A stretch of DNA of 25,504 nt from Utricularia gibba. Taxonomy: Eukaryota; Streptophyta; Magnoliopsida; Lamiales; Lentibulariaceae. Below the pieces are notes generated by a model. It was not told the origin of the DNA and did no database searches. It saw nothing but the letters and a program-made list of their open reading frames with translations. The stretch is from the NCBI GenBank assembly GCA_002189035.1, contig NEEC01000448.1:1-25504 (forward strand). Reading direction: 5' to 3'. A program made the position numbers and the translations under genes. Within the stretch, counting starts at the first letter, position 1. Each line of letters begins with the position of its first letter. Below are positions 2,589 through 25,491 of this stretch, in pieces.

Positions 2589-2862
2589 TTATAAAAATAT
2601 TTTTTTTGTCATTGTAGAAAGCTCATCACGCCACGCACACCACCCTGAGAGGTTTCAACAGCTGTTATGAACTCACAACCCCTTGCTCAGCAGATTCAGT
2701 AAAATTCTCTAACACTTGGGCTTCCAACGGATCATATCCCATATTCATTCATACGAAATTGTGCAAGAATAATGTGACTTTGAGTTTGAACTAGATAGTA
2801 GGACGCTGATCGAAGAATGGCCCATCGAGTCTCTAAAATTGGCCGTCCTCGCTCAACAAATG
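2589..2862 (-). pseudogene. PIF/Harbinger (HARBI1-like) transposase fossil, C-terminal part, reference copy
   Basis: Read on the minus strand, three blocks in different frames match the end of plant PIF/Harbinger transposases (DDE_Tnp_4 domain) in order. Block 1 has VER near 2857 (the ER corresponding to the family's ER-x-FG-x-LK stretch with the last catalytic acid) and RWAILRSASYYLVQTQSHII at 2768-2827, ending at a stop near 2729. Block 2 reads YDPLEAQVLENFTESAEQG, with DPLE at 2722-2733. Block 3 reads FITAVETSPGWCAWRDELS (WCAWRDEL at 2619-2642) and stops at 2589-2591, inside the palindrome arm. The family's ACCLLHN-type segment is deleted at the first frame break. Most of the transposase, including the first two catalytic Asp residues, is absent, and upstream the sequence joins the satellite core. 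In these elements the enzyme excises and reinserts the transposon; this copy cannot. Assignment is by family recognition, not by a search. Confidence 0.75.
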
Positions 2863-2866
2863 TGGG

Positions 2867-3806
2867 GTGCACGTGACATCCCAATTTCAACAAATGCATC
2901 ATGATTTTCGTCGAGTGGGCCCATGAGCCCGTCCCGAACCCGGGGCCCGGCCAAGGGCCCCTCGAGAGCGCCCGCCTCAATACGAGGAGGTGTTCCTTCA
3001 AAAACCATATACGCGTCTCGTCACAACCCAACGTTAATAAATGCATCACTTTTTTTGGCGCGCTACTGCTGACTTTGGGCCTGAGTTCGGCACGACCTCC
3101 GGCTCGATCAGGGTGCCCCACCGAGAGCTCCTCCTTAAGTATAAAGTGTGTTGTTGAAAAAAACCGTGTGCGGTTCTCGTGACATCCTAACTTCAACAAA
3201 TGCATCACGATTTTCGTCGAGTCGGACGGGACCGGGCTCCCGGGCCCGGACGAGGCGCAGCGCCCGCTCCCCTCCCCCCAAAACTAGAAGGTGTTCCATG
3301 GAAAACCATTTAGGCGGCTCGTGACAACCCAAAGTTAATAAATGCATCACTTTCTTTGCCGGGCTACAATGACTTTACGCTCGAGCCTGGTACGACGTAT
3401 GGGAAGATTCGAGTGCCCCCCGAGAGCGTCTCCACAAGTATAAAGCGTGTTGTTGAAAAAACCGTGTTGGGTGCACGTGACATCCTAATTTCAACAAATG
3501 TGTCACGATTTTCGCCGAGTGGGACCAGAGTGGGCTCATCAGCCAGACCGAACCCGGGGCCCAAGCCAAGGCCCCTCGAGAGCGCCCCCCACAAAACTAG
3601 ATGGTGTTCCACGAAAAAAAATTAGGCGGCTCGTGATAACCCAACGCTAAGAAATGCATCCCTTTTTTCGCCGGGCTAAAACTGACTTTGGGCTCATGCC
3701 CGGCGCGACCCCCAGCCCGTGTGCATACGCAGCAGCACCACGAGGCCACATGGCTTGGTTAATGCCCGCGTGCTCGAGCAGCAGCCACAAGGCCATACGG
3801 CCGTGG
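2867..3806 (+). repeat. GC-rich core: three ~300-bp subrepeats of paired ~150-bp units (reference copy)
   Basis: Three diverged ~300-bp subrepeats begin at GTGCACGTGACATCCCAA (2867), GTTCTCGTGACATCCTAA (about 3171) and GTGCACGTGACATCCTAA (about 3471). Each splits into two related halves. The first half carries TTCAACAAATG(C/T)(A/G)TCA(C/T)GATTTTCG, and the second, starting at CTCGT(C/G)A(C/T)AACCCAA, carries AAATGCATCACTTT. Both halves end in related sequence (CGAGAGC..., then TGTT...AAAACC). The third subrepeat fades after GCCCGGCGCGACC, and an unrelated GC-rich tail with GCAGCAGC and CACGAGGCCAC runs to CGGCCGTGG. Minus-strand ORFs through it show the recurring peptide MHLLKLGCH, a by-product of the repeat. 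In M1 the six half-units start near 548, 696, 853, 998, 1152 and 1310. No protein function is apparent. Confidence 0.88.
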
Positions 3807-3871
3807 AAAAAAAGAAAAACAACCATAAAATACAATAAGCCAAAAATAAAAAATAAAATTGATAAACCCTT
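3807..3871 (+). other. A-rich spacer
   Basis: About 65 bases of A-rich, low-complexity sequence (AAAAAAAGAAAAACAACC, then AAATAAAAAATAAAATTG) between the GC-rich tail and the AACCCG-rich segment. It recurs in all copies with small changes in A-run length. It could be the decayed poly(A)-like end of an inserted element, but nothing decides this. Confidence 0.5.
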
Positions 3872-4020
3872 GGTTCGGTTCGGGCCCAATCAAAACCCGT
3901 AGGGTTTAACCCGTTCGGGTTGAACAGAAAGACAACCCCATGGGTCATGCAAACTGTAATACCCAGAATTTCATCGGGTTGGGTCCGAACCTGAATGGAT
4001 CCAACCCAGGCCCATCTCTA
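3872..4020 (-). mobile_element. hAT-like terminal fragment, AACCCG-rich (reference copy)
   Basis: Read on the minus strand the segment begins TAGAGATGGGCCTGGGTTGG and runs into many short GGGTT, AACCCG and GGTTCGGACC motifs. Termini of the form T/CAGNGATGGNN followed by dense GGGT/ACCC motifs are typical of plant hAT (Ac-like) elements, which carry short terminal repeats plus subterminal transposase-binding motifs. No matching second end with an 8-bp target duplication was found, so this is at most one end. The fragment ends exactly where the palindrome arm begins. A telo-box-like AAACCCTA lies inside it. The same segment lies at 1555-1703, 6178-6324, 8491-8638, 10811-10956, 13125-13272, 15426-15574, 17746-17892, 20068-20215, 22394-22542 and 24716-24864. 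Confidence 0.4.
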
Positions 4021-4909
4021 ATCATAATCATATGATATAGGTTTATTAAATTATAAATAATTGAAATACATTATTTATTAAACCGTAGGATAACTGTGAA
4101 AGCTTCTTTGACTTAATTATTACCATTTGATCCTCAGTTGTACTTTGGATGGAGTGTGTATTTTTACTTTAGTCAATTTAATTAGCATTCGATCCTTGGT
4201 TATGATTCAGATCATATTTGCTATTTTTTTACTTTAAATATTTTTATTATCATTCGATCCTTAAGTATAATGCGGATCGAGCGCGTATTTTTTATTAGCA
4301 TTCGAACGTTAGGTATGCTGCGGATCGAGCGTATATTTTTCACTCTCATATTTTTATTAGCCTTAGATCCTTAGGTATACTTTGGATCGAGTGCATATTC
4401 ATTTATTTTAAATCTTAATTAGCGTTCCACCGTTAGGAGCAATTTAGAACGTGTATACATTACAATGCCATGCCCCGGGCGTGGTTTACGCACAACCCAC
4501 GCCCGTGTGCCCTTGCAATGTAAACACGCTCCACATTGCTCCTAAGGATCGAGCGTTAACACAAGTTTCAAGTAAACCATCTCCACTCGATCCGAATCAT
4601 GTCTAAAGACCGAAAGCCAATAAAAATATTAAAATAAAAAATATACGCTCGATCCGCATCATATCTTAGAATCGAATGCAAATAGAATCGTTCAAATAAA
4701 AAATATACACTCGATTGGAAAACAAGGATCGAATGCTAATTAAAATGATTAAAATAAAAATGCACACTCCATCCAAAGTATAACTAAGGTCGAATGCTAA
4801 TAAAATTAAAAACTAAGAAACTTTCACATGTAGTATATGCTTTAATAACTAACGTATTTACATTATTTATATTTTAATAAACATATATCACATGATTATA
4901 AAAATATTT
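4021..4909. repeat. Giant imperfect palindrome J2
   Basis: The centre is damaged: the left stem reads CCCCGGGCGTGG near 4474 instead of CACACGGGCGTGG, so the innermost stem loses pairs. About 14 bases are missing from the left arm near 4287-4295. Confidence 0.88.
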
Positions 4910-6948
4910 TTTTTGTCATTGTAGAAAGCTCATCACGCCACGCACACCACCCTGGAGAGGTTTCAACAGCTGTTATGAACTCACAACCCCTTGCTCAGCA
5001 GATTCAGTAAAATTCTCTAACACTTGGGCTTCCAACGGATCATATCCCATATTCATTCATACGAAATGTGCAAGAATAATGTGACTTTGAGTTTGAACTA
5101 GATAGTAGGACGCTGATCGAAGAATGGCCCATCGAGTCTCTAAAATTGGCCGTCCTCGCTCAACAAATGTGGGGTGCACGTGACATCCCAATTTCAACAA
5201 ATGCATCATGATTTTCGTCGAGTGGGCCCATGAGCCCGTCCGAACCCGGGGCCCGGGCCAAGGGCCCCTCGAGAGCGCCCGCCTCAATACGAGGAGGTGT
5301 TCCTTCAAAAACCATATACGCGTCTCGTCACAACCCAACGTTAATAAATGCATCACTTTTTTTTGGCGCGCTACTGCTGACTTTGGGCCTGAGTTCGCAC
5401 GACCTCCGGCTCGATCAGGGTGCCCCACCGAGAGCTCCTCCTTAAGTATAAAGTGTGTTGTTGAAAAAAACCGTGTGCGGTTCTCGTGACATCCTAACTT
5501 CAACAAATGCATCACGATTTTCGTCGAGTCGGACGGGACCGGGCTCCCGGGGCCCGACGAGGCGCAGCGCCCGCTCCCCTCCCCCCCAAAACTAGAAGGT
5601 GTTCCATGGAAAACCATTTAGGCGGCTCGTGACAACCCAAAGTTAATAAATGCATCACTTTCTTTGCCGGCTACAATGACTTTACGCTCGAGCCTGGTAC
5701 GACGTATGGGAAGATTCGAGTGCCCCCGAGAGCGTCTCCACAAGTATAAAGCGTGTTGTTGAAAAAACCGTGTTGGGTGCACGTGACATCCTAATTTCAA
5801 CAAATGTGTCACGATTTTCGCCGAGTGGGACCAGAGTGGGCTCATCAGCCAGACCGAACCCGGGGCCCAAGCCAAGGGCCCCTCGAGAGCGCCCCCCCAC
5901 AAAACTAGATGGTGTTCCACGAAAAAAAATTAGGCGGCTCGTGATAACCCAACGCTAAGAAATGCATCCCTTTTTTCGCCGGGCTAAAACTGACTTTGGC
6001 TCATGCCCGGCGCGACCCCCAGCCCGTGTGCATACGCAGCAGCACCACGAGGCCATGGGCTTGGTTAATGCCCGCGTGCTCGAGCAGCAGCCACAAGGCC
6101 ATACGGCCGTGGAAAAAAAGAAAAACAACCATAAAATACAATAAGCCAAAAATAAAAAATAAAATTGATAAACCCTTGGTTCGGTTCGGGCCCAATCAAA
6201 ACCCGTAGGGTTTAACCCGTTCGGGTTGAACAGAAAGACAACCCATGGGTCATGCAAACTGTAATACCCAGAATTTCATCGGGTTGGGTCCGAACCTGAA
6301 TGGATCCAACCCAGGCCATCTCTAATCATAATCATATGATATAGGTTATTAAATTATAAATAATTGAAATACATTATTTATTAAACCGTAGGATAACTGT
6401 GAAAGCTTCTTTGACTTAATTATTACCATTTGATCCTCAGTTGTACTTTGGATGGAGTGTGTATTTTTACTTTAGTCAATTTAATTAGCATTCGATCCTT
6501 GGTTATGATTCAGATCATATTTGCTATTTTTTACTTTAAATATTTTTATTATCATTCGATCCTTAAGTATAATGCGGATCGAGCGCGTATTTTTTATTTT
6601 AATATTTTTTATTAGCATTCGAACGTTAGGTATGCTGCGGATCGAGCGTATATTTTTCACTCTCATATTTTTATTAGCCTTAGATCCTTAGGTATACTTT
6701 GGATCGAGTGCATATTCATTTATTTTAAATCTTAATTAGCGTTCCACCGTTAGGAGCAATTTAGAACGTGTATACATTACAATGCCATGCCACACGGGCG
6801 TGGTTTACGCACAACCCACGCCCGTGTGCCCTTGCAATGTAAACACGCTCCACATTGCTCCTAAGGATCGAGCGTTAACACAAGTTTCAAGTAAACCATC
6901 TCCACTCGATCCGAATCATGTCTAAAGACCGAAAGCCAATAAAAATAT
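4630..6948 (+). repeat. Satellite monomer M3 (2319 bp)
   Basis: Right arm to 4909, transposase fossil 4906-5168, GC-rich core 5174-6112, AACCCG-rich segment 6178-6324, left arm from 6325. Copy-specific changes: GGAATCTTAACCAAGG is shortened to GGAAAACAAGG near 4717-4729, one T is missing in GAAATGTGC near 5066, and one G in GAGTTCGCACG near 5397. Other differences are single bases in C or G runs. Confidence 0.95.
4906..5168 (-). pseudogene. PIF/Harbinger transposase fossil, M3 copy
   Basis: The C-terminal blocks are intact as in the reference. A one-base loss near 5066 (GAAATGTGC) moves the RWAILR block into a different frame relative to the YDPLE block, so the usual first stop is bypassed or shifted. 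Confidence 0.72.
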
Positions 6949-7224: not shown

Positions 7225-9263
7225 AAAAATATTTTTTTTTGTCATTGTAGAAAGCTCATCACGCCACGCACACCACCCTGGAGAGGTTTCAACAGCTGTT
7301 ATGAACTCACAACCCCTTGCTCAGCAGATTCAGTAAAATTCTCTAACACTTGGGCTTCCAACGGATCATATCCCATATTCATTCATACGAAATTGTGCAA
7401 GAATAATGTGACTTTGAGTTTGAACTAGATAGTAGGACGCTGATCGAAGAATGGCCCATCGAGTCTCTAAAATTGGCCGTCCTCGCTCAACAAATGTGGG
7501 GTGCACGTGACATCCCAATTTCAACAAATGCATCATGATTTTCGTCGAGGGCCCATGAGCCCGTCCGAACCCGGGGCCCGGGCCAAGGCCCCTCGAGAGC
7601 GCCCGCCTCAATACGAGGAGGTGTTCCTTCAAAAACCATATACGCGTCTCGTCACAACCCAACGTTAATAAATGCATCACTTTTTTGGCGCGCTACTGCT
7701 GACTTTGGGCCTGAGTTCGGCACGACCTCCGGCTCGATCAGGTGCCCCACCGAGAGCTCCTCCTTAAGTATAAAGTGTGTTGTTGAAAAAAACCGTGTGC
7801 GGTTCTCGTGACATCCTAACTTCAACAAATGCATCACGATTTTCGTCGAGTCGGACGGACCGGGCTCCCGGGGCCCGGACGAGGCGCAGCGCCGCTCCCC
7901 TCCCCCCCAAAACTAGAAGGTGTTCCATGGAAAACCATTTAGCGGCTCGTGACAACCCAAAGTTAATAAATGCATCACTTTCTTGCCGGCTACAATGACT
8001 TTACGCTCGAGCCTGGTACGAGTATGGGAAGATTCGAGTCCCCCCCGAGAGCGTCTCCACAAGTATAAAGCGTGTTGTTGAAAAAACCGTGTTGGGTGCA
8101 CGTGACATCCTAATTTCAACAAATGTGTCACGATTTTCGCCGAGTGGGACCAGAGTGGCTCATCAGCCAGACCGAACCCGGGCCCAAGCCAAGGCCCCTC
8201 GAGAGCGCCCCCCACAAAACTAGATGGTGTTCCACGAAAAAAATTAGGCGGTCGTGATAACCCAACGCTAGAAATGCATCCCTTTTTTCGCCGGGCTAAA
8301 ACTGACTTTGGGCTCATGCCCGGCGCGACCCCAGCCCGTGTGCATACGCAGCAGCACCACGAGGCCACATGGGCTTGGTTAATGCCCCGCTGCTCGAGCA
8401 GCAGCCACAAGGCCATACGGCCGTGGAAAAAAAGAAAAACAACCATAAAATACAATAAGCCAAAAATAAAAATAAAATTGATAAACCCTTGGTTCGGTTC
8501 GGGCCCAATCAAAACCCGTAGGGTTTAACCCGTTCGGGTTGAACAGAAAGACAACCCCATGGGTCATGCAAACTGTAATACCCAGAATTTCATCGGTTGG
8601 GTCCGAACCTGAATGGATCCAACCCAGGCCCATCTCTAATCATAATCATATGATATAGGTTTATTAAATTATAAATAATTGAAATACATTATTTATTAAA
8701 CCGTAGGATAACTGTGAAAGCTTCTTTGACTTAATTATTACCATTTGATCCTCAGTTGTACTTTGGATGGAGTGTGTATTTTTACTTTAGTCAATTTAAT
8801 TAGCATTCGATCCTTGGTTATGATTCAGATCATATTTGCTATTTTTTTACTTTAAATATTTTTATTATCATTCGATCCTTAAATTATAATGCGGATCGAG
8901 CGCGTATTTTTTATTTTAATATTTTTATTAGCATTCGAACGTTAGGTATGCTGCGGATCGAGCGTATATTTTCACTCTCATATTTTTATTAGCCTTAGAT
9001 CCTTAGGTATACTTTGGATCGAGTGCATATTCATTTATTTTAAATCTTAATTAGCGTTCCACCGTTAGGAGCAATTTAGAACGTGTATACATTACAATGC
9101 CATGCCACACGGGCGTGGTTTACGCACAACCCACGCCCGTGTGCCCTTGCAATGTAAACACGCTCCACATTGCTCCTAAGGATCGAGCGTTAACACAAGT
9201 TTCAAGTAAACCATCTCCACTCGATCCGAATCATGTCTAAAGACCGAAAGCCAATAAAAATAT
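6949..9263 (+). repeat. Satellite monomer M4 (2315 bp)
   Basis: Right arm to 7224, transposase fossil 7221-7496, GC-rich core 7501-8426, AACCCG-rich segment 8491-8638, left arm from 8639. Copy-specific changes: GAGTGGGCCC shortened to GAGGGCCC near 7548, GTACGACGTATG to GTACGAGTATG near 8027, GTGCCCC to GTCCCCC near 8039, CCCGCGTGCTC to CCCCGCTGCTC near 8386, and TTAAGTATAA to TTAAATTATAA near 8880. Because of these shifts a 199-codon minus-strand reading frame opens at 7913-8512; neighbouring copies do not keep it. Confidence 0.95.
7221..7496 (-). pseudogene. PIF/Harbinger transposase fossil, M4 copy
   Basis: All three blocks present. The T run before GTCATTG is one base longer (nine T), which would shift the last few codons before the terminal stop. 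Confidence 0.72.
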
Positions 9264-9538: not shown

Positions 9539-11579
9539 AAAAATATTTTTTTTGTCATTGTAGAAAGCTCATCACGCCACGCACACCACCCTGGAGAGGT
9601 TTCAACAGCTGTTATGAACTCACAACCCCTTGCTCAGCAGATTCAGTAAAATTCTCTAACACTTGGGCTTCCAACGGATCATATCCCATATTCATTCATA
9701 CGAAATGTGCAGAATAATGTGACTTTGAGTTTGAACTAGATAGTAGGACGCTGATCGAAGAATGGCCCATCGAGTCTCTAAAATTGGCCGTCCTCGCTCA
9801 ACAAATGTGGGTGCACGTGACATCCCAATTTCAACAAATGCATCATGATTTTCGTCGAGTGGCCCATGAGCCCGTCCGAACCCGGCCCGGGCCAAGGGCC
9901 CCTCGAGAGCGCCCGCCTCAATACGAGGAGGTGTTCCTTCAAAAACCATATACGCGTCTCGTCACAACCCAACGTTAATAAATGCATCACTTTTTTTGGC
10001 GCGCTACTGCTGACTTTGGGCCTGAGTTCGGCACGACCTCCGGCTCGATCAGGGTGCCCCACCGAGAGCTCCTCCTTAAGTATAAAGTGTGTTGTTGAAA
10101 AAAACCGTGTGCGGTTCTCGTGACATCCTAACTTCAACAAATGCATCACGATTTTCGTCGAGTCGGACGGGACCGGCTCCCGGGGCCCGGACGAGGCGCA
10201 GCGCCCGCTCCCCCCCCCCAAAACTAGAAGGTGTTCCATGGAAAACCATTTAGGCGGCTCGTGACAACCCAAAGTTAATAAATGCATCACTTTCTTTGCC
10301 GGGCTACAATGACTTTACGCTCGAGCCTGGTACGACGTATGGGAAGATTCGAGTGCCCCCCGAGAGCGTCTCCACAAGTATAAAGCGTGTTGTTGAAAAA
10401 ACCGTGTTGGGTGCACGTGACATCCTAATTTCAACAAATGTGTCACGATTTTCGCCGAGTGGGACCAGAGTGGGCTCATCAGCCAGACCGAACCCGGGCC
10501 CAAGCCAAGGGCCCCTCGAGAGCGCCCCCCCACAAAACTAGATGGTGTTCCACGAAAAAAAATTAGGCGGCTCGTGATAACCCAACGCTAAGAAATGCAT
10601 CCCTTTTTTCGCCGGGCTAAAACTGACTTTGGGCTCATGCCCGGCGCGACCCCCAGCCCGTGTGCATACGCAGCAGCACCACGAGGCCACATGGGCTTTT
10701 AATGCCCGCGTGCTCGAGCAGCAGCCACAAGGCCATACGGCCGTGGAAAAAAAGAAAACAACCATAAAATACAATAAGCCAAAAATAAAAAATAAAATTG
10801 ATAAACCCTTGGTTCGGTTCGGCCCAATCAAAACCCGTAGGTTTAACCCGTTCGGGTTGAACAGAAAGACAACCCCATGGGTCATGCAAACTGTAATACC
10901 CAGAATTTCATCGGGTTGGGTCCGAACCTGAATGGATCCAACCCAGCCCATCTCTAATCATAATCATATGATATAGGTTTATTAAATTATAAATAATTGA
11001 AATACATTATTTATAAACCGTAGGATAACTGTGAAAGCTTCTTTGACTTAATTATTACCATTTGATCCTCAGTTGTACTTTGGATGGAGTGTGTATTTTA
11101 CTTTAGTCAATTTAATTAGCATTCGATCCTTGGTTATGATTCAGATCATATTTGCTATTTTTTTACTTTAAATATTTTTATTATCATTCGATCCTTAAGT
11201 ATAATGCGGATCGAGCGCGTATTTTTTATTTTAATATTTTTTATTAGCATTCGAACGTTAGGTATGCTGCGGATCGAGCGTATTTTTTCACTCTCATATT
11301 TTTATTAGCCTTAGATCCTTAGGTATACTTTGGATCGAGTGCATATTCATTTATTTTAAATCTTAATTAGCGTTCCACCGTTAGGAGCAATTTAGAACGT
11401 GTATACATTACAATGCCATGCCACACGGGCGTGGTTTACGCACAACCCACGCCCGTGTGCCCTTGCAATGTAAACACGCTCCACATTGCTCCTAAGGATC
11501 GAGCGTTAACACAAGTTTCAAGTAAACCATCTCCACTCGATCCGAATCATGTCTAAAGACCGAAAGCCAATAAAAATAT
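9264..11579 (+). repeat. Satellite monomer M5 (2316 bp)
   Basis: Right arm to about 9538, transposase fossil 9536-9806, GC-rich core 9811-10746, AACCCG-rich segment 10811-10956, left arm from 10957. Copy-specific changes: ATGATTATAA shortened to ATGATATAA near 9532, GAAATGTGCAGAAT lacking two bases near 9703, GTGGGCCC to GTGGCCC near 9860, and GGGCTTGGTTAATG shortened to GGGCTTTTAATG near 10694. Confidence 0.95.
9536..9806 (-). pseudogene. PIF/Harbinger transposase fossil, M5 copy
   Basis: All three blocks recognisable. Two single-base losses near 9703-9712 (GAAATGTGCAGAAT) fall between the SHII block and the YDPLE block, and the terminal TTA is altered by the ATGATATAA deletion. Confidence 0.72.
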
Positions 11580-11854: not shown

Positions 11855-13874
11855 AAAAATATTTTTTTTGTCATTGTAGAAAGCTCATCACGCCACGCAC
11901 ACCACCCTGGAGAGGTTTCAACAGCTGTTATGAACTCACAACCCCTTGCTCAGCAGATTCAGTAAAATTCTCTAACACTTGGGCTTCCAACGGATCATAT
12001 CCCATATTCATTCATACGAAATTGTGCAAGAATAATGTGACTTTGAGTTTGAACTAGATAGTAGGACGCTGATCGAAGAATGGCCCATCGAGTCTCTAAA
12101 ATTGGCCGTCCTCGCTCAACAAATGTGGGGTGCACGTGACATCCCAATTTCAACAAATGCATCATGATTTTCGTCGAGTGGGCCCATGAGCCCGTCCGAA
12201 CCCGGGCCCGGCCAAGGGCCCCTCGAGAGCGCCCCGCCTCAATACGAGGAGGTGTTCCTTCAAAAACCATATACGCGTCTCGTCACAACCCAACGTTAAT
12301 AAATGCATCACTTTTTTGGCGCGCTACTGCTGACTTTGGCCTGAGTTCGGCACGACCTCCGCTCGATCAGGGTGCCCCACCGAGAGCTCCTCCTTAAGTA
12401 AAGTGTGTTGTTGAAAAAAACCGTGTGCGGTTCTCGTGACATCCTAACTTCAACAAATGCATCACGATTTTCGTCGAGTCGGACGGGACCGGGCTCCCGG
12501 GCCCGGACGAGGCGCAGCGCCCGCTCCCCTCCCCCCAAAACTAGAAGGTGTTCCATGGAAAACCATTTAGGCGGCTCGTGACAACCCAAAGTTAATAAAT
12601 GCATCACTTTCTTTGCCGGGCTACAATGACTTTACGCTCGAGCCTGGTACGACGTATGGAAGATTCGAGTGCCCCCCGAGAGCGTCTCCACAAGTATAAA
12701 GCGTGTTGTTGAAAAACCGTGTTGGGTGCACGTGACATCCTAATTTCAACAAATGTGTCACGATTTTCGCCGAGTGGGACCAGAGTGGCTCATCAGCCAG
12801 ACCGAACCCGGGCCCAAGCCAAGGCCCCTCGAGAGCGCCCCCCCACAAAACTAGATGGTGTTCCACGAAAAAAAAATTAGGCGGCTCGTGATAACCCAAC
12901 GCTAGAAATGCATCCCTTTTTTCGCCGGGCTAAAACTGACTTTGGGCTCATGCCCGGCGCGACCCCCAGCCCGTGTGCATACGCAGCAGCACCACGAGGC
13001 CACATGGCTTGGTTAATGCCCGCGTGCTCGAGCAGCAGCCACAAGGCCATACGGCCGTGGAAAAAAAGAAAACAACCATAAAATACAATAAGCCAAAAAT
13101 AAAAAATAAAATTGATAAACCCTTGGTTCGGTTCGGCCCAATCAAAACCCGTAGGGTTTAACCCGTTCGGGTTGAACAGAAAGACAACCCCATGGGTCAT
13201 GCAAACTGTAATACCCAGAATTTCATCGGGTTGGGTCCGAACCTGAATGGATCCAACCCAGGCCCATCTCTAATCATAATCATATGATATAGGTTTATTA
13301 AATTATAAATAATTGAAATACATTATTTTATTAAACCGTAGGATAACTGTGAAAGCTTCTTTGACTTAATTATTACCATTTGATCCTCAGTTGTACTTTG
13401 GATGGAGTGTGTATTTTTACTTTAGTCAATTTAATTAGCATTCGATCCTTGGTTATGATTCAGATCATATTTGCTATTTTTTACTTTAAATTTTTATTAT
13501 CATTCGATCCTTAAGTATAATTTCGACGATTTTTATTTAATATTTATTTTTCGTTTAGTATGCTGCGGATCGAGCGTATATTTTTCACTCTCATATTTTT
13601 ATTTAGCCTTAATCCTTAGGTATACTTTGGATCGAGTGCATATTCATTTATTTTAAATCTTAATTAGCGTTCCACCGTTAGGAGCAATTAGAACGTGTAT
13701 ACATTACAATGCCATGCCACACGGCGTGGTTTACGCACAACCCACGCCCGTGTGCCCTTGCAATGTAAACACGCTCCACATTGCTCCTAAGGATCGAGCG
13801 TTAACACAAGTTTCAAGTAAACCATCTCCACTCGATCCGAATCATGTCTAAAGACCGAAAGCCAATAAAAATAT
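11580..13874 (+). repeat. Satellite monomer M6 (2295 bp, shortest copy)
   Basis: Right arm to 11854, transposase fossil 11851-12124, GC-rich core 12130-13060, AACCCG-rich segment 13125-13272, left arm from 13273. The short length comes mainly from 13521-13557, where one AT-rich subrepeat loses its GCGGATCGAGCGCG and GCATTCGAACG motifs and is replaced by a shorter disordered T-rich stretch. Also TTAAGTATAAAG is reduced to TTAAGTAAAG near 12398. Confidence 0.95.
11851..12124 (-). pseudogene. PIF/Harbinger transposase fossil, M6 copy
   Basis: Matches the reference closely, with the same three frames and no extra break seen. Confidence 0.72.
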
Positions 13875-14148: not shown

Positions 14149-16196
14149 AAAAATATTTTTTTTGTCATTGTAGAAAGCTCATCACGCCACGCACACCACC
14201 CTGGAGAGGTTTCAACAGCTGTTATGAACTCACAACCCCTTGCTCAGCAGATTCAGTAAAATTCTCTAACACTTGGGCTTCCAACGGATCATATCCCATA
14301 TTCATTCATACGAAATTGTGCAAGAATAATGTGACTTTGAGTTTGAACTAGATAGTAGGACGCTGATCGAAGAATGGCCCATCGAGTCTCTAAAATTGGC
14401 CGTCCTCGCTCAACAAATGTGGGGTGCACGTGACATCCCAATTTCAACAAATGCATCATGATTTTCGTCGAGTGGGCCCATGAGCCCGTCCGAACCCGGG
14501 GCCCGGGCCAAGGGCCCCTCGAGAGCGCCCGCCTCAATACGAGGAGGTGTTCCTTCAAAAACCATATACGCGTCTCGTCACAACCCAACGTTAATAAATG
14601 CATCACTTTTTTGGCGCGCTACTGCTGACTTTGGGCCTGAGTTCGGCACGACCTCCGGCTCGATCAGGGTGCCCCACCGAGAGCTCCTCCTTAAGTATAA
14701 AGTGTGTTGTTGAAAAAAACCGGTGCGGTTCTCGTGACATCCTAACTTCAACAAATGCATCACGATTTTCGTCGAGTCGGACGGACCGGGCTCCCGGGGC
14801 CCGGACGAGGCGCAGCGCCCGCTCCCCTCCCCCCCAAAACTAGAAGGTGTTCCATGGAAAACCATTTAGGCGGCTCGTGACAACCCAAAGTTAATAAATG
14901 CATCACTTTCTTTGCCGGGCTACAATGACTTTACGCTCGAGCCTGGTACGACGTATGGGAAGATTCGAGTGCCCCCCGAGAGCGTCTCCACAAGTATAAA
15001 GCGTGTTGTTGAAAAAACCGTTGGGTGCACGTGACATCCTAATTTCAACAAATGTGTCACGATTTTCGCCGAGTGGGACCAGAGTGGGCTCATCAGCCAG
15101 ACCGAACCCGGGCCCAAGCCAAGGGCCCCTCGAGAGCGCCCCCCACAAAACTAGATGGTGTTCCACGAAAAAAAATTAGGCGGCTCGTGATAACCCAACG
15201 CTAAGAAATGCATCCCTTTTTTCGCCGGGCTAAAACTGACTTTGGGCTCATGCCCGGCGCGACCCCCAGCCCGTGTGCATACGCAGCAGCACCACGAGCC
15301 ACATGGGCTTGGTTAATGCCCGCGTGCTCGAGCAGCAGCCACAAGGCCATACGGCCGTGGAAAAAAAGAAAAACAACCATAAAATACAATAAGCCAAAAA
15401 TAAAAAATAAAATTGATAAACCCTTGGTTCGGTTCGGGCCCAATCAAAACCCGTAGGGTTTAACCCGTTCGGGTTGAACAGAAAGACAACCCCATGGGTC
15501 ATGCAAACTGTAATACCCAGAATTTCATCGGGTTGGGTCCGAACCTGAATGGATCCAACCCAGGCCCATCTCTAATCATAATCATATGATATAGGTTTAT
15601 TAAATTATAAATAATTGAAATACATTATTTATTAAACCGTAGGATAACTGTGAAAGCTTCTTTGACTTAATTATTACCATTTGATCCTCAGTTGTACTTT
15701 GGATGGAGTGTGTTTTTACTTTAGTCAATTTAATTAGCATTCGATCCTTGGTTATGATTCAGATCATATTTGCTATTTTTTTACTTTAAATATTTTTATT
15801 ATCATTCGATCCTTAAGTATAATGCGGATCGAGCGCGTATTTTTTATTTTAATATTTTTTATTAGCATTCGAACGTTAGGTATGCTGCGGATCGAGCGTA
15901 TATTTTTCACTCTCATATTTTTATTAGCCTTAGATCCTTAGGTATACTTTGGATCGAGTGCATATTCATTTATTTTAAATCTTAATTAGCGTTCCACCGT
16001 TAGGAGCAATTTAGAACGTGTATACATTACAATGCCATGCCACACGGGCGTGGTTTACGCACAACCCACGCCCGTGCCCTTGCAATGTAAACACGCTCCA
16101 CATTGCTCCTAAGGATCGAGCGTTAACACAAGTTTCAAGTAAACCATCTCCACTCGATCCGAATCATGTCTAAAGACCGAAAGCCAATAAAAATAT
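13875..16196 (+). repeat. Satellite monomer M7 (2322 bp)
   Basis: Right arm to 14148, transposase fossil 14145-14419, GC-rich core 14424-15360, AACCCG-rich segment 15426-15574, left arm from 15575. Copy-specific changes: AACCGTGTGCGG reduced to AACCGGTGCGG near 14721, AACCGTGTTGGG to AACCGTTGGG near 15017, GTGTGTATTTTTAC to GTGTGTTTTTAC near 15709, and the right stem of the central hairpin loses TG near 16076. Confidence 0.95.
14145..14419 (-). pseudogene. PIF/Harbinger transposase fossil, M7 copy
   Basis: Matches the reference closely. It keeps CCCTGGAGAGG, from which the reference copy has lost one G. Confidence 0.72.
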
Positions 16197-16473: not shown

Positions 16474-18517
16474 AAAAATATTTTTTTTGTCATTGTAGAA
16501 AGCTCATCACGCCACGCACACCACCCTGGAGAGGTTTCAACAGCTGTTATGAACTCACAACCCCTTGCTCAGCAGATTCAGTAAAATTCTCTAACACTTG
16601 GCTTCCAACGGATCATATCCCATATTCATTCATACGAAATTGTGCAAGAATAATGTGACTTTGAGTTTGAACTAGATAGTAGGACGCTGATCGAAGAATG
16701 GCCCATCGAGTCTCTAAAATTGGCCGTCCTCGCTCAACAAATGTGGGTGCACGTGACATCCCAATTTCAACAAATGCATCATGATTTTCGTCGAGTGGGC
16801 CCATGAGCCCGTCCGAACCCGGGCCCGGCCAAGGGCCCCTCGAGAGCGCCCGCCTCAATACGAGGAGGTGTTCCTTCAAAAACCATATACGCGTCTCGTC
16901 ACAACCCAACGTTAATAAATGCATCACTTTTTTTGGCGCGCTACTGCTGACTTTGGGCCTGAGTTCGGCACGACCTCCGGCTCGATCAGGTGCCCCACCG
17001 AGAGCTCCTCCTTAAGTATAAAGTGTGTTGTTGAAAAAAACCGTGTGCGGTTCTCGTGACATCCTAACTTCAACAAATGCATCACGATTTTCGTCGAGTC
17101 GGACGGGACCGGGCTCCCGGGGCCCGGACGAGGCGCAGCGCCCGCTCCCCTCCCCCCAAAACTAGAAGGTTTCCATGGAAAACCATTTAGGCGGCTCGTG
17201 ACAACCCAAAGTTAATAAATGCATCACTTTCTTTGCCGGGCTACAATGACTTTACGCTCGAGCCTGGTACGACGTATGGGAAGATTCGAGTGCCCCCCGA
17301 GAGCGTCTCCACAAGTATAAAGCGTGTTGTTGAAAAAACCGTGTTGGGTGCACGTGACATCCTAATTTCAACAAATGTGTCACGATTTTCGCCGAGTGGG
17401 ACCAGAGTGGGCTCATCAGCCAGACCGAACCCGGGCCCAAGCCAAGGGCCCCTCGAGAGCGCCCCCACAAAACTAGATGGTGTTCCACGAAAAAAAATTA
17501 GGCGGCTCGTGATAACCCAACGCTAAGAAATGCATCCCTTTTTTCGCCGGGCTAAAACTGACTTTGGGCTCATGCCCGGCGCGACCCCCAGCCCGTGTGC
17601 ATACGCAGCAGCACCACGAGGCCACATGGCTTGGTTAATGCCCGCGTGCTCGAGCAGCAGCCACAAGGCCATACGGCCGTGGAAAAAAAGAAAAACAACC
17701 ATAAAATACAATAAGCCAAAAATAAAAAATAAAATTTAAAACCTTGGTTCGGTTCGGCCCAATCAAAACCCGTAGGGTTTAACCCGTTCGGGTGAACAGA
17801 AAGACAACCCCATGGGTCATGCAAACTGTAATACCCAGAATTTCATCGGGTTGGGTCCGAACCTGAATGGATCCAACCCAGGCCCATCTCTAATCATAAT
17901 CATATGATATAGGTTTATTAAATTATAAATAATTGAAATACATTATTTATTAAACCGTAGGATAACTGTGAAAGCTTCTTTGACTTAATTATTACCATTT
18001 GATCCTCAGTTGTACTTTGGATGGAGTGTGTATTTTTACTTTAGTCAATTTAATTAGCATTCGATCCTTGGTTATGATTCAGATCATATTTGCTATTTTT
18101 TTACTTTAAAATATTTTTATTATCATTCGATCCTTAAGTATAATGCGGATCGAGCGCGTATTTTTTATTTTAATATTTTATTAGCATTCGAACGTTAGGT
18201 ATGCTGCGGATCGAGCGTATATTTTTCACTCTCATATTTTTATTAGCCTTAGATCCTTAGGTATACTTTGGATCGAGTGCATATTCATTTATTTTAAATC
18301 TTAATTAGCGTTCCACCGTTAGGAGCAATTTAGAACGTGTATACATTACAATGCCATGCCACACGGGCGTGGTTTACGCACAACCCACGCCCGTGTGCCC
18401 TTGCAATGTAAACACGCTCCACATTGCTCCTAAGGATCGAGCGTTAACACAAGTTTCAAGTAAACCATCTCCACTCGATCCGAATCATGTCTAAAGACCG
18501 AAAGCCAATAAAAATAT
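16197..18517 (+). repeat. Satellite monomer M8 (2321 bp)
   Basis: Right arm to 16473, transposase fossil 16470-16743, GC-rich core 16747-17682, AACCCG-rich segment 17746-17892, left arm from 17893. Copy-specific changes: one extra A near 16385, AAGGTGTTCC reduced to AAGGTTTCC near 17167, AAAATTGATAAACCC reduced to AAAATTTAAAACC near 17731, and GGGTTGAAC to GGGTGAAC near 17791. Confidence 0.95.
16470..16743 (-). pseudogene. PIF/Harbinger transposase fossil, M8 copy
   Basis: Three blocks present. One G is missing in CTTGGCTTCC near 16600, and ATGTGGGTGC at the upstream edge lacks one G. Confidence 0.72.
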
Positions 18518-18791: not shown

Positions 18792-20837
18792 AAAAATATT
18801 TTTTTGTCATTGTAGAAAGCTCATCACGCCACGCACACCACCCTGGAGAGGTTTCAACAGCTGTTATGAACTCACAACCCTTGCTCAGCAGATTCAGTAA
18901 AAATTCTCTAACACTTGGGCTTCCAACGGATCATATCCCATATTCATTCATACGAAATTGTGCAAGAATAATGTGACTTTGAGTTTGAACTAGATAGTAG
19001 GACGCTGATCGAAGAATGGCCCATCGAGTCTCTAAAATTGGCCGTCCTCGCTCAACAAATGTGGGGTGCACGTGACATCCCAATTTCAACAAATGCATCA
19101 TGATTTTCGTCGAGTGGGCCCATGAGCCCGTCCGAACCCGGGGCCCGGGCCAAGGCCCCTCGAGAGCGCCCGCCTCAATACGAGGAGGTGTTCCTTCAAA
19201 AACCATATACGCGTCTCGTCACAACCCAACGTTAATAAATGCATCACTTTTTTTGGCGCGCTACTGCTGACTTTGGGCCTGAGTTCGGCACGACCTCCGG
19301 CCCGATCAGGGTGCCCCACCGAGAGCTCCTCCTTAAGTATAAAGTGTGTTGTTGAAAAAAACCGTGTGCGGTTCTCGTGACATCCTAACTTCAACAAATG
19401 CATCACGATTTTCGTCGAGTCGGACGGGACCGGGCTCCCGGGGCCCGGACGAGGCGCAGCGCCCGCTCCCCTCCCCCCCAAAACTAGAAGGTGTTCCATG
19501 GAAAACCATTTAGGCGGCTCGTGACAACCCAAAGTTAATAAATGCATCACTTTCTTTGCCGGGCTACAATGACTTTACGCTCGAGCCTGGTACGACGTAT
19601 GGGAAGATTCGAGTGCCCCCCGAGAGCGTCTCCACAAGTATAAAGCGTGTTGTTGAAAAAACCGTGTTGGGTGCACGTGACATCCTAATTTCAACAAATG
19701 TGTCACGATTTTCGCCGAGTGGGACCAGAGTGGGCTCATCAGCCAGACCGAACCCGGGCCCAAGCCAAGGGCCCCTCGAGAGCCCCCCACAAAACTAGAT
19801 GGTGTTCCACGAAAAAAAATTAGGCGGCTCGTGATAACCCAACGCTAAGAAATGCATCCCTTTTTTCGCCGGGCTAAAACTGACTTTGGCTCATGCCCGG
19901 CGCGACCCCAGCCCGTGTGCATACGCAGCAGCACCACGAGGCCACATGGGCTTGGTTAATGCCCGCGTGCTCGAGCAGCAGCCACAAGGCCATACGGCCG
20001 TGGAAAAAAAGAAAAACAACCATAAAATACAATAAGCCAAAAATAAAAATAAAATTGATAAACCCTTGGTTCGGTTCGGCCCAATCAAAACCCGTAGGGT
20101 TTAACCCGTTCGGGTTGAACAGAAAGACAACCCCATGGGTCATGCAAACTGTAATACCCAGAATTTCATCGGGTTGGGTCCGAACCTGAATGGATCCAAC
20201 CCAGGCCCATCTCTAATCATAATCATATGATATAGGTTTATTAAATTATAAATAATTGAAATCATTATTTATTAAACCGTAGGATAACTGTGAAAGCTTC
20301 TTTGACTTAATTATTACCATTTGATCCTCAGTTGTACTTTGGATGGAGTGTGTATTTTTACTTTAGTCAATTTAATTAGCATTCGATCCTTGGTTATGAT
20401 TCAGATCATATTTGCTATTTTTTTACTTTAAATATTTTATTATCATTCGATCCTTAAGTATAATGCGGATCGAGCGCGTATTTTTTATTTTAATATTTTT
20501 TATTAGCATTCGAACGTTAGGTATGCTGCGGATCGAGCGTATATTTTCACTCTCATATTTTTATTAGCCTTAGATCCTTAGGTATACTTTGGATCGAGTG
20601 CATATTCATTTATTTTAAATCTTAATTAGCGTTCCACCGTTAGGAGCAATTTAGAACGTGTATACATTACAATGCCATGCCACACGGCGTGGTTTACGCA
20701 CAACCCACGCCCGTGTGCCCTTGCAATGTAAACACGCTCCACATTGCTCCTAAGGATCGAGCGTTAACACAAGTTTCAAGTAAACCATCTCCACTCGATC
20801 CGAATCATGTCTAAAGACCGAAAGCCAATAAAAATAT
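18518..20837 (+). repeat. Satellite monomer M9 (2320 bp)
   Basis: Right arm to 18791, transposase fossil 18788-19061, GC-rich core 19066-20003, AACCCG-rich segment 20068-20215, left arm from 20216. It carries one of the few clear substitutions, CCGGCTCG to CCGGCCCG at 19302. It also has a shortened T run near 18800, an extra A near 18901 and AGAGCGCCCCCC reduced to AGAGCCCCCC near 19780. Confidence 0.95.
18788..19061 (-). pseudogene. PIF/Harbinger transposase fossil, M9 copy
   Basis: Three blocks present. The T run near 18800 is shortened to six and AACCCTTGCTC near 18876 lacks one C, adding a frame change inside the ESAEQG block. An extra A near 18901 partly compensates. Confidence 0.72.
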
Positions 20838-21136: not shown

Positions 21137-21401
21137 AAAAATATTTTTTTTGTCATTGTAGAAAGCTCATCACGCCACGCACACCACCCTGGAGAGGTTT
21201 CAACAGCTGTTATGAACTCACAACCCCTTGCTCAGCAGATTCAGTAAAATTCTCTAACACTTGGGCTTCCAACGGATCATATCCCATATTCATTCATACG
21301 AAATTGTGCAAGAATAATGTGACTTTGAGTTTGAACTAGATAGTAGGACGCTGATCGAAGAATGGCCCATCGAGTCTCTAAAATTGCCGTCCTCGCTCAA
21401 A
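21133..21401 (-). pseudogene. PIF/Harbinger transposase fossil, M10 copy, upstream edge lost
   Basis: C-terminal blocks as in the reference. Near 21386 a G is missing (AATTGCCG). The bases coding the VER upstream edge (ACAAATGTGGGGTG) are deleted around 21400, joining the fossil directly to CACGTGAC of the core. Confidence 0.72.
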
Positions 21402-22542
21402 ACACGTGACATCCCAATTTCAACAAATGCATCATGATTTTTCGTCGAGTGGGCCCATGAGCCCGTCCGAACCCGGGGCCCGGGCCAAGGGCCCCTCGAG
21501 AGCGCCCGCCTCAATACGAGGAGGTGTTCCTTCAAAAACCATATACGCGTCTCGTCACAACCCAACGTTAATAAATGCATCACTTTTTTTGGCGCGCTAC
21601 TGCTGACTTTGGGCCTGAGTTCGGCACGACCTCCGGCTCGATCAGGGTGCCCCACCGAGAGCTCTCCTTAAGTATAAAGTGTGTTGTTGAAAAAAACCGT
21701 GTGCGGTTCTCGTGACATCCTAACTTCAACAAATGCATCACGATTTTCGTCGAGTCGGACGGGACCGGGCTCCCGGGGCCCGGACGAGGCGCAGCGCCCG
21801 CTCCCCTCCCCCCCAAACTAGAAGGTGTGGGAAAACCATTTAGGCGGCTCGTGACAACCCAAAGTTAATAAATGCATCACTTTCTTTGCCGGGCTACAAT
21901 GACTTTACGCTCGAGCCTGGTACGACGTATGGGAAGATTCGAGTGCCCCCCGAGAGCGTCTCCACAAGTATAAAGCGTGTTGTTGAAAAACCGTGTTGGG
22001 TGCACGTGACATCCTAATTTCAACAAATGTGTCACGATTTTCGCCGAGTGGGACCAGAGTGGGCTCATCAGCCAGACCGAACCCGGGGCCCAAGCCAAGG
22101 GCCCCTCGAGAGCGCCCCCCACAAAACTAGATGTGTTCCACGAAAAAAAATTAGGCGCTCGTGAAACCAACGCTAAGAAATGCATCCCTTTTTTCGCCGG
22201 GCTAAAACTGACTTTGGGCTCATGCCCGGCGCGACCCCCAGCCCGTGTGCATACGCAGCAGCACCACGAGGCCACATGGGCTTGGTTAATGCCCGCGTGC
22301 TCGAGCAGCAGCCACAAGGCCATACCGGGAAAAAAGAAAAACAACCATAAAATACAATAAGCCAAAAATAAAAAATAAAATTGATAAACCCTTGGTTCGG
22401 TTCGGGCCCAATCAAAACCCGTAGGGTTTAACCCGTTCGGGTTGAACAGAAAGACAACCCCATGGGTCATGCAAACTGTAATACCCAGAATTTCATCGGG
22501 TTGGGTCCGAACCTGAATGGATCCAACCCAGGCCCATCTCTA

Positions 22543-23437: not shown

Positions 23438-25491
23438 AAAAATATTTTTTTTGTCATTGTAGAAAGCTCATCACGCCACGCACACCACCCTGGAGAGGTT
23501 TCAACAGCTGTTATGAACTCACAACCCTTGCTCAGCAGATTCAGTAAAATTCTCTAACACTTGGGCTTCCAACGGATCATATCCCATATTCATTCATACG
23601 AAATTGTGCAAGAATAATGTGACTTTGAGTTTGAACTAGATAGTAGGACGCTGATCGAAGAATGGCCCATCGAGTCTCTAAAATTGGCCGTCCTCGCTCA
23701 ACAAATGTGGGGTGCACGTGACATCCCAATTTCAACAAATGCATCATGATTTTCGTCGAGTGGGCCCATGAGCCCGTCCGAACCCGGGGCCCGGGCCAAG
23801 GGCCCCTCGAGAGCGCCCGCCTCAATACGAGGAGGTGTTCCTTCAAAAACCATATACGCGTCTCGTCACAACCCAACGTTAATAAATGCATCACTTTTTT
23901 TGGCGCGCTACTGCTGACTTTGGGCCTGAGTTCGGCACGACCTCCGGCTCGATCAGGGTGCCCCACCGAGAGCTCCTCCTTAAGTATAAAGTGTGTTGTT
24001 GAAAAAACCGTGTGCGGTTCTCGTGACATCCTAACTTCAACAAATGCATCACGATTTTCGAGTCGGACGGGACCGGGCTCCCGGGGCCCGGACGAGGCGC
24101 AGCGCCCGCTCCCCTCCCCCCAAAACTAGAAGGTGTTCCATGGAAAACCATTTAGGCGGCTCGTGACAACCCAAAGTTAATAAATGCATCACTTTCTTTG
24201 CCGGGCTACAATGACTTTACGCTCGAGCCTGGTACGACGTATGGGAAGATTCGAGTGCCCCCCGAGAGCGTCTCCACAAGTATAAAGCGTGTTGTTGAAA
24301 AAACCGTGTTGGGTGCACGTGACATCCTAATTTCAACAAATGTGTCACGATTTTCGCCGAGTGGGACCAGAGTGGGCTCATCAGCCAGACCGAACCCGGG
24401 GCCAAGCCAAGGGCCCCTCGAGAGCGCCCCCCCACAAAACTAGATGGTGTTCCACGAAAAAAAATTAGGCGGCTCGTGATAACCCAACGCTAAGAAATGC
24501 ATCCCTTTTTTCGCCGGGCTAAAACTGACTTTGGGCTCATGCCCGGCGCGACCCCCAGCCCGTGTGCATACGCAGCAGCACCACGAGGCCACATGGGCTT
24601 GGTTAATGCCCGCGTGCTCGAGCAGCAGCCACAAGGCCATACGGCCGTGGAAAAAAAGAAAAACAACCATAAAATACAATAAGCCAAAAATAAAAAATAA
24701 AATTGATAAACCCTTGGTTCGGTTCGGGCCCAATCAAAACCCGTAGGGTTTAACCCGTTCGGGTTGAACAGAAAGACAACCCCATGGGTCATGCAAACTG
24801 TAATACCCAGAATTTCATCGGGTTGGGTCCGAACCTGAATGGATCCAACCCAGGCCCATCTCTAATCATAATCATATGATATAGGTTTATTAAATTATAA
24901 ATAATTGAAATACATTATTTATTAAACCGTAGGATAACTGTGAAAGCTTCTTTGACTTAATTATTACCATTTGATCCTCAGTTGTACTTTGGATGGAGTG
25001 TGTATTTTTACTTTAGTCAATTTAATTAGCATTCGATCCTTGGTTATGATTCAGATCATATTTGCTATTTTTTTTACTTTAAATATTTTTATTATCATTC
25101 GATCCTTAAGTATAATGCGGATCGAGCGCGTATTTTTTATTTTAATATTTTTTATTAGCATTCGAACGTTAGGTATGCTGCGGATCGAGCGTATATTTTT
25201 CACTCTCATATTTTTATTAGCCTTAGATCCTTAGGTATACTTTGGATCGAGTGCATATTCATTTATTTTAAATCTTAATTAGCGTTCCACCGTTAGGAGC
25301 AATTTAGAACGTGTATACATTACAATGCCATGCCACACGGGCGTGGTTTACGCACAACCCACGCCCGTGTGCCCTTGCAATGTAAACACGCTCCACATTG
25401 CTCCTAAGGATCGAGCGTTAACACAAGTTTCAAGTAAACCATCTCCACTCGATCCGAATCATGTCTAAAGACCGAAAGCCAATAAAAATAT
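23168..25491 (+). repeat. Satellite monomer M11 (2324 bp)
   Basis: Right arm to 23437, transposase fossil 23434-23706, GC-rich core 23712-24650, AACCCG-rich segment 24716-24864, left arm from 24865 and continuing past the window end. Copy-specific changes: GGAATCTTAACC reduced to GGAATTAACC near 23257, TGCACACTCCATCC changed to CACACACTCC near 23301, TTTTCGTCGAG reduced to TTTTCGAG near 24056, and GGGGCCCAAGCC to GGGGCCAAGCC near 24399. Confidence 0.95.
23434..23706 (-). pseudogene. PIF/Harbinger transposase fossil, M11 copy
   Basis: Three blocks present. CAACCCTTGCTC near 23523 lacks one C, as in M9. Confidence 0.72.

Follow-up and report, generated by a model that had tools for sequence, protein, structure and literature searches.

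The tandem unit that fills the analysed stretch of the Utricularia gibba genome seems, with a probability of roughly 0.9, to be a chimera that holds a slice captured from the middle of an old PIF/Harbinger transposon and that was amplified by its host, not by Harbinger transposition. The unit is a mosaic of inverted-repeat arms, a transposase tail and about three GC-rich repeats of ~ 300 bp. Since each unit holds this transposase tail and fuller copies occur elsewhere in the genome, the satellite is partly built from a dead transposon, and the mobile-element ancestry put forward in the original prediction is borne out by the identity of this tail, at the DNA level, with Harbinger copies of that genome.

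The window (i.e. the whole stretch analysed, bases 1-25504 of contig C254, in a genome of 100.09 Mb and 516 contigs) is a tandem repeat of ~ 2.3 kb with 11 transposase blocks, and in clean loci the period is 2336 bp. Seven clean units, from C211 and C257, were the sole basis of the majority consensus; five of these are identical (2336 bp being their length), while the other two differ by 1-2 indel columns. Compared with these copies, the 10 full units of the window (468 to 23631) contain 13-48 indel columns and 0-23 substitutions. Because of this many indels relative to near-identical clean units the window contig looks to be of low accuracy, as would be expected of a low-coverage long-read contig, and frame readings in it need care.

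A 27-base marker of the unit has 213 exact matches in the genome (the 100 matches listed lying on C150 to C252), and arrays were seen on at least 17 contigs, for example C211 (23 kb), C254 (25.5 kb) and C257 (42 kb). These long head-to-tail arrays of near-identical units are satellite DNA. The array on C402 starts at C402:2605372 and can again be followed to the last base of the contig, 2629907 (with 2,107 bases in between unread), its units being 98-100% identical to the clean unit. It adjoins LTR-like sequence with an integrase-like open frame (L047 1660-7272), which from that frame we take to be Ty3/gypsy, and the frames further out presumably represent NOP56. On C349 (43 kb; L052, L066, L067) a variant with a period of ~ 2.44 kb is present in both orientations, including one piece that is 13% diverged; it lies at a K2P distance of 0.025 from the clean unit, and is perhaps an older part of the history of the array.

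All 11 units of the window carry, on the minus strand, a decayed C-terminal piece of a PIF/Harbinger transposase of ~ 80 codons. In the unit on which the original prediction was made the block spans 2611-2864 (minus strand), close to the 2589-2862 originally proposed, and runs from VERGRPILETRWAILR, aligned to IERAWGILKTRWAILR of the transposase (a region which we assume to hold the catalytic E), to WCAWRDEL. The remaining blocks, likewise on the minus strand, are located at 296-545 (unit 1), 4918-5171 (unit 3), 7244-7498 (unit 4), 9557-9809 (unit 5), 11873-12127 (unit 6), 14167-14421 (unit 7), 16492-16745 (unit 8), 18809-19063 (unit 9), 21155-21408 (unit 10) and 23456-23709 (unit 11). The three peptides RWAILR, YDPLE and WCAWRDEL (at 2810-2827, 2722-2736 and 2619-2642 in the unit first read, minus strand) each occur 11 times on the minus strand of the window, and their order is kept in every unit.

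This order and strand had been predicted together with three different reading frames, and it is the frames that did not hold. In all 15 units scored outside the window (loci L013, L014, L042, L043 and L047, with units counted if they yielded each of the three peptides), the first and third peptides share one frame and the middle one is shifted to the next, a pattern that is found in 5 of the 11 window units, the other 6 showing a different one. L042 contributed just 1 complete unit to this count (its exact matches to the three peptides numbering 4, 5 and 2), most of its units being unscorable for want of an exact match to the third peptide. The three-frame pattern is thus partly an artefact, with two frames in the cleaner arrays and the third resulting from small indels of the window contig. 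Because the clean units keep two frames, the frame breaks of the satellite itself come down to a 14-bp and a 1-bp deletion, together 15 bp.

At the protein level, one exon of the source element matched the unit in a tblastn search with 62 bits (E 3.4e-16; 79 residues, 51% identity) in one frame, in an alignment that reads through stops and through the out-of-frame middle of the block. Out of 500 dinucleotide shuffles 443 gave some match, the best reaching 23.1 bits. The satellite peptides read VERGRPILETRWAILRSASYYLVQTQSHIILAQ..., YDPLEAQVLENFTESAEQG and AVETSPGWCAWRDEL, and the source element reads IERAWGILKTRWAILRSASYYPVQTQSRIILACALLHNFVRMNMAYDPLEAEVSENFTESVEQGAGEFITAVETSSGWCT. A proposed HMM check of the fragments themselves failed: a Pfam scan returned 0 families for 5 peptides, 3 of which cover all or part of the block. 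Most of the fragment falls at the end of the DDE_Tnp_4 model or past it, and the source copies do match it. In a protein search of the genome with a 37-residue stretch of the block, each of the 150 matches listed lay on an array contig and showed 100% identity (150 of 275 candidates scored); since this query was swamped by the satellite itself, the search was run in reverse, from the Harbinger loci. A PDB search with a source-element exon gave two matches, both unrelated (E 0.11 and 0.26).

The genome holds at least 147 matches to the profile of DDE_Tnp_4 (PF13359; 150 of 266 candidates scored), none of which is in C254. Among 24 DDE_Tnp_4 loci there was one strong match to the satellite unit, C321:40458-41857 (84% over 262 bp, E 2.6e-78), where the spacer next to the transposase is moreover 88% identical to the arm of the unit over 147 bp. 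With a part of this locus that has no counterpart in the satellite as query, at least 8 long copies were found that are 88-100% identical to the query copy, which is counted among them (40 of 64 candidates scored), in addition to partial copies and older relatives. Seven of them were compared with the satellite block, leaving out the eighth long copy, C328, and all seven are 84-86% identical to it at the DNA level, over 246-262 aligned columns. Conversely, the transposase slice as genome query retrieves satellite copies at 85-86% identity (best E 2.0e-73; 40 of 230 candidates scored).

All seven fetched copies overlap, by position, a genome-wide PF13359 match. The copy on C413, of ~ 4.87 kb, matches DDE_Tnp_4 on two frames with 50 and 31.3 bits (E 3.2e-13 and 1.9e-7; cut-off 24.8 bits), and has a second gene, convergent with that of the transposase, with a Myb/SANT-like domain (PF12776, E 5.2e-12). 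The terminal inverted repeats are imperfect and of the GGCCGTGTTTGGTA type, with GGC(C/T)GT(G/A)TTTGGTA on the left and TACCAAACACGG(C/A)C on the right. Both copies of which both ends were read (C413 and C2a) are flanked by TAA on both sides, and the right ends of the seven copies are followed by TAA or TTA in six cases and by TGA in C321. By their DDE_Tnp_4 domain, Myb/SANT gene (C413), inverted ends and TAA flanks, the source copies are PIF/Harbinger elements. Taken with the DNA identity and the shuffle controls, these Pfam matches of the source copies uphold the central claim of the original prediction, that the C-terminus of such a transposase lies in broken frames in every unit. By K2P distance, the seven main copies lie 0.03-0.07 apart from one another and 0.10-0.12 from the satellite block; with bootstrap values of 67 and 57 at the two nodes adjoining the satellite branch, the satellite is not firmly placed inside or outside this young Harbinger family.

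In these elements the transposase gene ends mid-element, facing the Myb/SANT gene across a spacer. The gene end reads ELA(T/R)IMWNEY(M/T)NR in the six copies read, and is preceded by RDEL in five of them (in C321 it is shifted by a base there) and directly followed by a stop in four; in C413 a stop takes the place of the W of WRDEL. The slice in the satellite is collinear with the element, from which it differs, besides the two small deletions mentioned above, by the loss of ~ 190 bp across the gene end (element positions 2677-2865 are absent from the satellite). Because this deletion removed the true C-terminus, the stop at 2589-2591 derives from arm sequence; it follows WCAWRDELSTMTKKIFL and lies at the very edge of the palindrome arm but within it, as had been predicted of the last stop. 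The block makes up ~ 255 of the 2336 bp, and together with the shared arm ~ 400 bp of the unit match the element; the second gene and all of the transposase upstream of the ERAWG region are absent. The layout of arm, deletion and block is identical along the C402 array and in the four full blocks of the C349 stretch (19.8 kb). An intermediate with a full gene end was considered for C349, but all four full blocks in these 19.8 kb share the deletion.

Next to the block lies the right inverted-repeat arm (2243-2610), composed of ~ 62-bp sub-repeats, followed by a hairpin (CACACGGGCGTGGTTTACGCACAACCCACGCCCGTGTG; 2134-2213) and the left arm (1707-2133), which is in reverse orientation to the right one. 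The arms pair with 80% identity (unit positions 1-283 versus 2003-1721, where unit position 1 is window position 2310). The last ~ 150 bp of the right arm are 88-91% identical to the Harbinger spacer in six of the seven copies, while in the seventh, C1, just 80 bp were matched (87.5%). The same ~ 150 bp also match a separate family of dispersed repeats. The arm was originally thought to be the 3' end region of the transposon, which is contradicted by its position: it corresponds to this dispersed repeat in the spacer (element positions 2522-2676), ~ 2.5 kb from the left end of the transposon and ~ 2.1 kb from the right. Over 38 bp the hairpin is 84% identical to spacer sequence of the C413 element, and related hairpins are present in the dispersed repeat.

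Matches to the dispersed repeat stop at one common query base, 246, in at least 12 places of the genome (40 of 486 candidates scored); all six loci that were read continue past this base into a common sequence, which is absent from the six Harbinger copies aligned. As for the older Harbinger relatives, L048 is without the arm repeat and L049 has part of it. Features of the dispersed repeat itself (L057-L062) are sub-repeats of ~ 62 bp, hairpins similar to CACACGGGCGTGGTTTA and a tail with motifs similar to GGGTCAAATATG; when it was screened for hAT-type ends and duplications of 8 bp, nothing convincing emerged. It is conceivable, though we lean against it, that a foldback-type inverted-repeat family was the main founder of the unit beside the Harbinger tail, the transposase piece being a passenger: arms, hairpin and sub-repeats take up more than one third of the unit (its positions 1721-2336 and 1-301), and the dispersed copies extend, in the six loci read, past the part shared with Harbinger. 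Such a founder would not contradict a Harbinger origin of the block, however, and a single captured Harbinger slice explains both the end of the right arm and the block, because in the Harbinger copies, too, the two adjoin in this order.

On its other side, where the transposase homology stops, the block is joined directly to the GC-rich tandem repeats (about three of ~ 300 bp, at 2865-3710). A frame of 214 codons without a stop extends, in the clean units, from these repeats into the transposase block (unit minus strand, 1068-427), and a shorter form of this frame is present at window 5057-5617. Further on, a segment of ~ 217 bp (3807-4023) contains many GGTTCGG/CGGGTTGGG motifs and ends in CCATCTCTA, which to us resembles a hAT end. 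Outside the array contigs the GC-rich repeat was found, among the matches listed, at two sites of contig C460 (40 of 428 candidates scored). These two loci, L056 (C460:127500-133000) and L064 (C460:85500-91500), have the arm, the hairpin and the GC-rich repeat of the satellite, and in L056 a stretch of 34 bases (3744-3777) across the joint of transposase and GC-rich repeat is identical to the satellite, whereas the C-terminal block itself is missing. Because of this missing block the locus would be a cousin of the satellite founder and not its progenitor, as far as can be judged from the sequence, and both C460 loci are likely to be such cousins.

Could the Harbinger family itself have spread the unit? 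The relevant alternative is that the satellite is a non-autonomous Harbinger in tandem, a MITE-like array that the transposase of the family can still mobilise, which might be suspected from the youth of the Harbinger copies (the seven main copies being 0.03-0.07 apart, see above) and from the long inverted-repeat arms of the unit. The arms match the internal spacer and a different dispersed repeat, however, not the ends of the element. No site resembling a Harbinger end with up to 7 substitutions in 23 was found on either strand of the doubled unit, which at this threshold is also without Harbinger terminal inverted repeats and target duplication of its own. Since no Harbinger ends were found in the unit, a cut-and-paste origin of the array is unlikely, and we regard a mobilisable array as very improbable.

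Still less probable is that the likeness is to a domesticated, Harbinger-derived host gene and not to a transposon. Some DDE_Tnp_4 matches do lie in long open frames (L001-L004, 347-599 codons) that may be domesticated, but the block peptides match these no better than E 0.26, and the relatives of the block are multicopy, mostly with internal stops, and have transposon ends. That the reading of three peptides in these frames is due to chance, for which only the empty Pfam scan of the fragments could be adduced, is refuted by the shuffle control (62 versus 23.1 bits) and by the 84-86% DNA identity to all seven copies compared.

We thus return to the captured Harbinger slice, for which the following course of events is proposed. 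The slice would have comprised part of the spacer (already with the arm of the other repeat in it) and the 3' end of the transposase gene. The founder was presumably a degenerate Harbinger derivative with the layout of this slice, related to the rearranged C460 locus. Tandem amplification may then have proceeded through recombination by the host, i.e. by unequal exchange or by rolling-circle copying of an excised circle, after which the units would have been kept almost identical. The block probably yields no working transposase, and it would have been host processes that spread the satellite, not Harbinger transposition.

The arrays seen lie on small contigs and, in one case, at the end of a contig. 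A telomere pattern has 480 matches in the genome, of which those listed reach C4, and neither TTTAGGG nor CCCTAAA was found in the first 700 bases of C402. It is a rather speculative thought that the satellite forms heterochromatic or even centromeric blocks, as a Harbinger-foldback chimera caught soon after its birth from a transposon; it would then be unplaced or contig-terminal because such blocks broke the assembly. Equally speculatively, the host, whose putative centromeres have been described as being without satellites, would have a real long-array satellite. If true, the source family, the sister junction locus and the diverged variant would all still be readable.

Satellites derived from transposons, Harbinger included, are a kind already known, to which the U. 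gibba satellite adds a member. VaccSat7 of Vaccinium was suggested to have arisen from the terminal portion of a Harbinger element (PMC7290377, as far as consulted). Both are plant tandem repeats with Harbinger sequence, in the case of VaccSat7 within copies with 3-bp target duplications that are mostly TAA/TTA. VaccSat7, however, lies near the 3' terminus of non-autonomous Harbingers, with 3-5 tandem units inside the elements (PMC7290377), whereas the U. gibba satellite has a piece of transposase coding sequence in a mosaic unit of 2336 bp without Harbinger ends. Transposon-derived satellites in general are well reviewed, for instance those from Helitrons, which share with the present case that tandem arrays were born from DNA transposons (PMC9659126, PMC12628747, in the parts consulted); here, in contrast, a broken slice of Harbinger within a chimera is the founder. 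The words Harbinger and PIF do not occur in the main text of these two reviews as available to us, and the accessible part of a paper on U. reniformis (PMC6982007) describes no such satellite. A published description of the U. gibba satellite was not found in a search that lay outside the 2017 genome paper, so one may be in print.

With respect to its own source family, the satellite has the transposase C-terminus in the same order and orientation and 84-86% identical, but it is only a slice, without ends, second gene or upstream transposase. What it offers is a well-resolved case of the birth of a satellite, partly from a DNA transposon, in which the source family, the deletions, a cousin locus and a diverged variant are found together in a 100-Mb genome. 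It also illustrates that broken coding frames can reveal an ancestry of repeats that is missed by ORF and domain searches.
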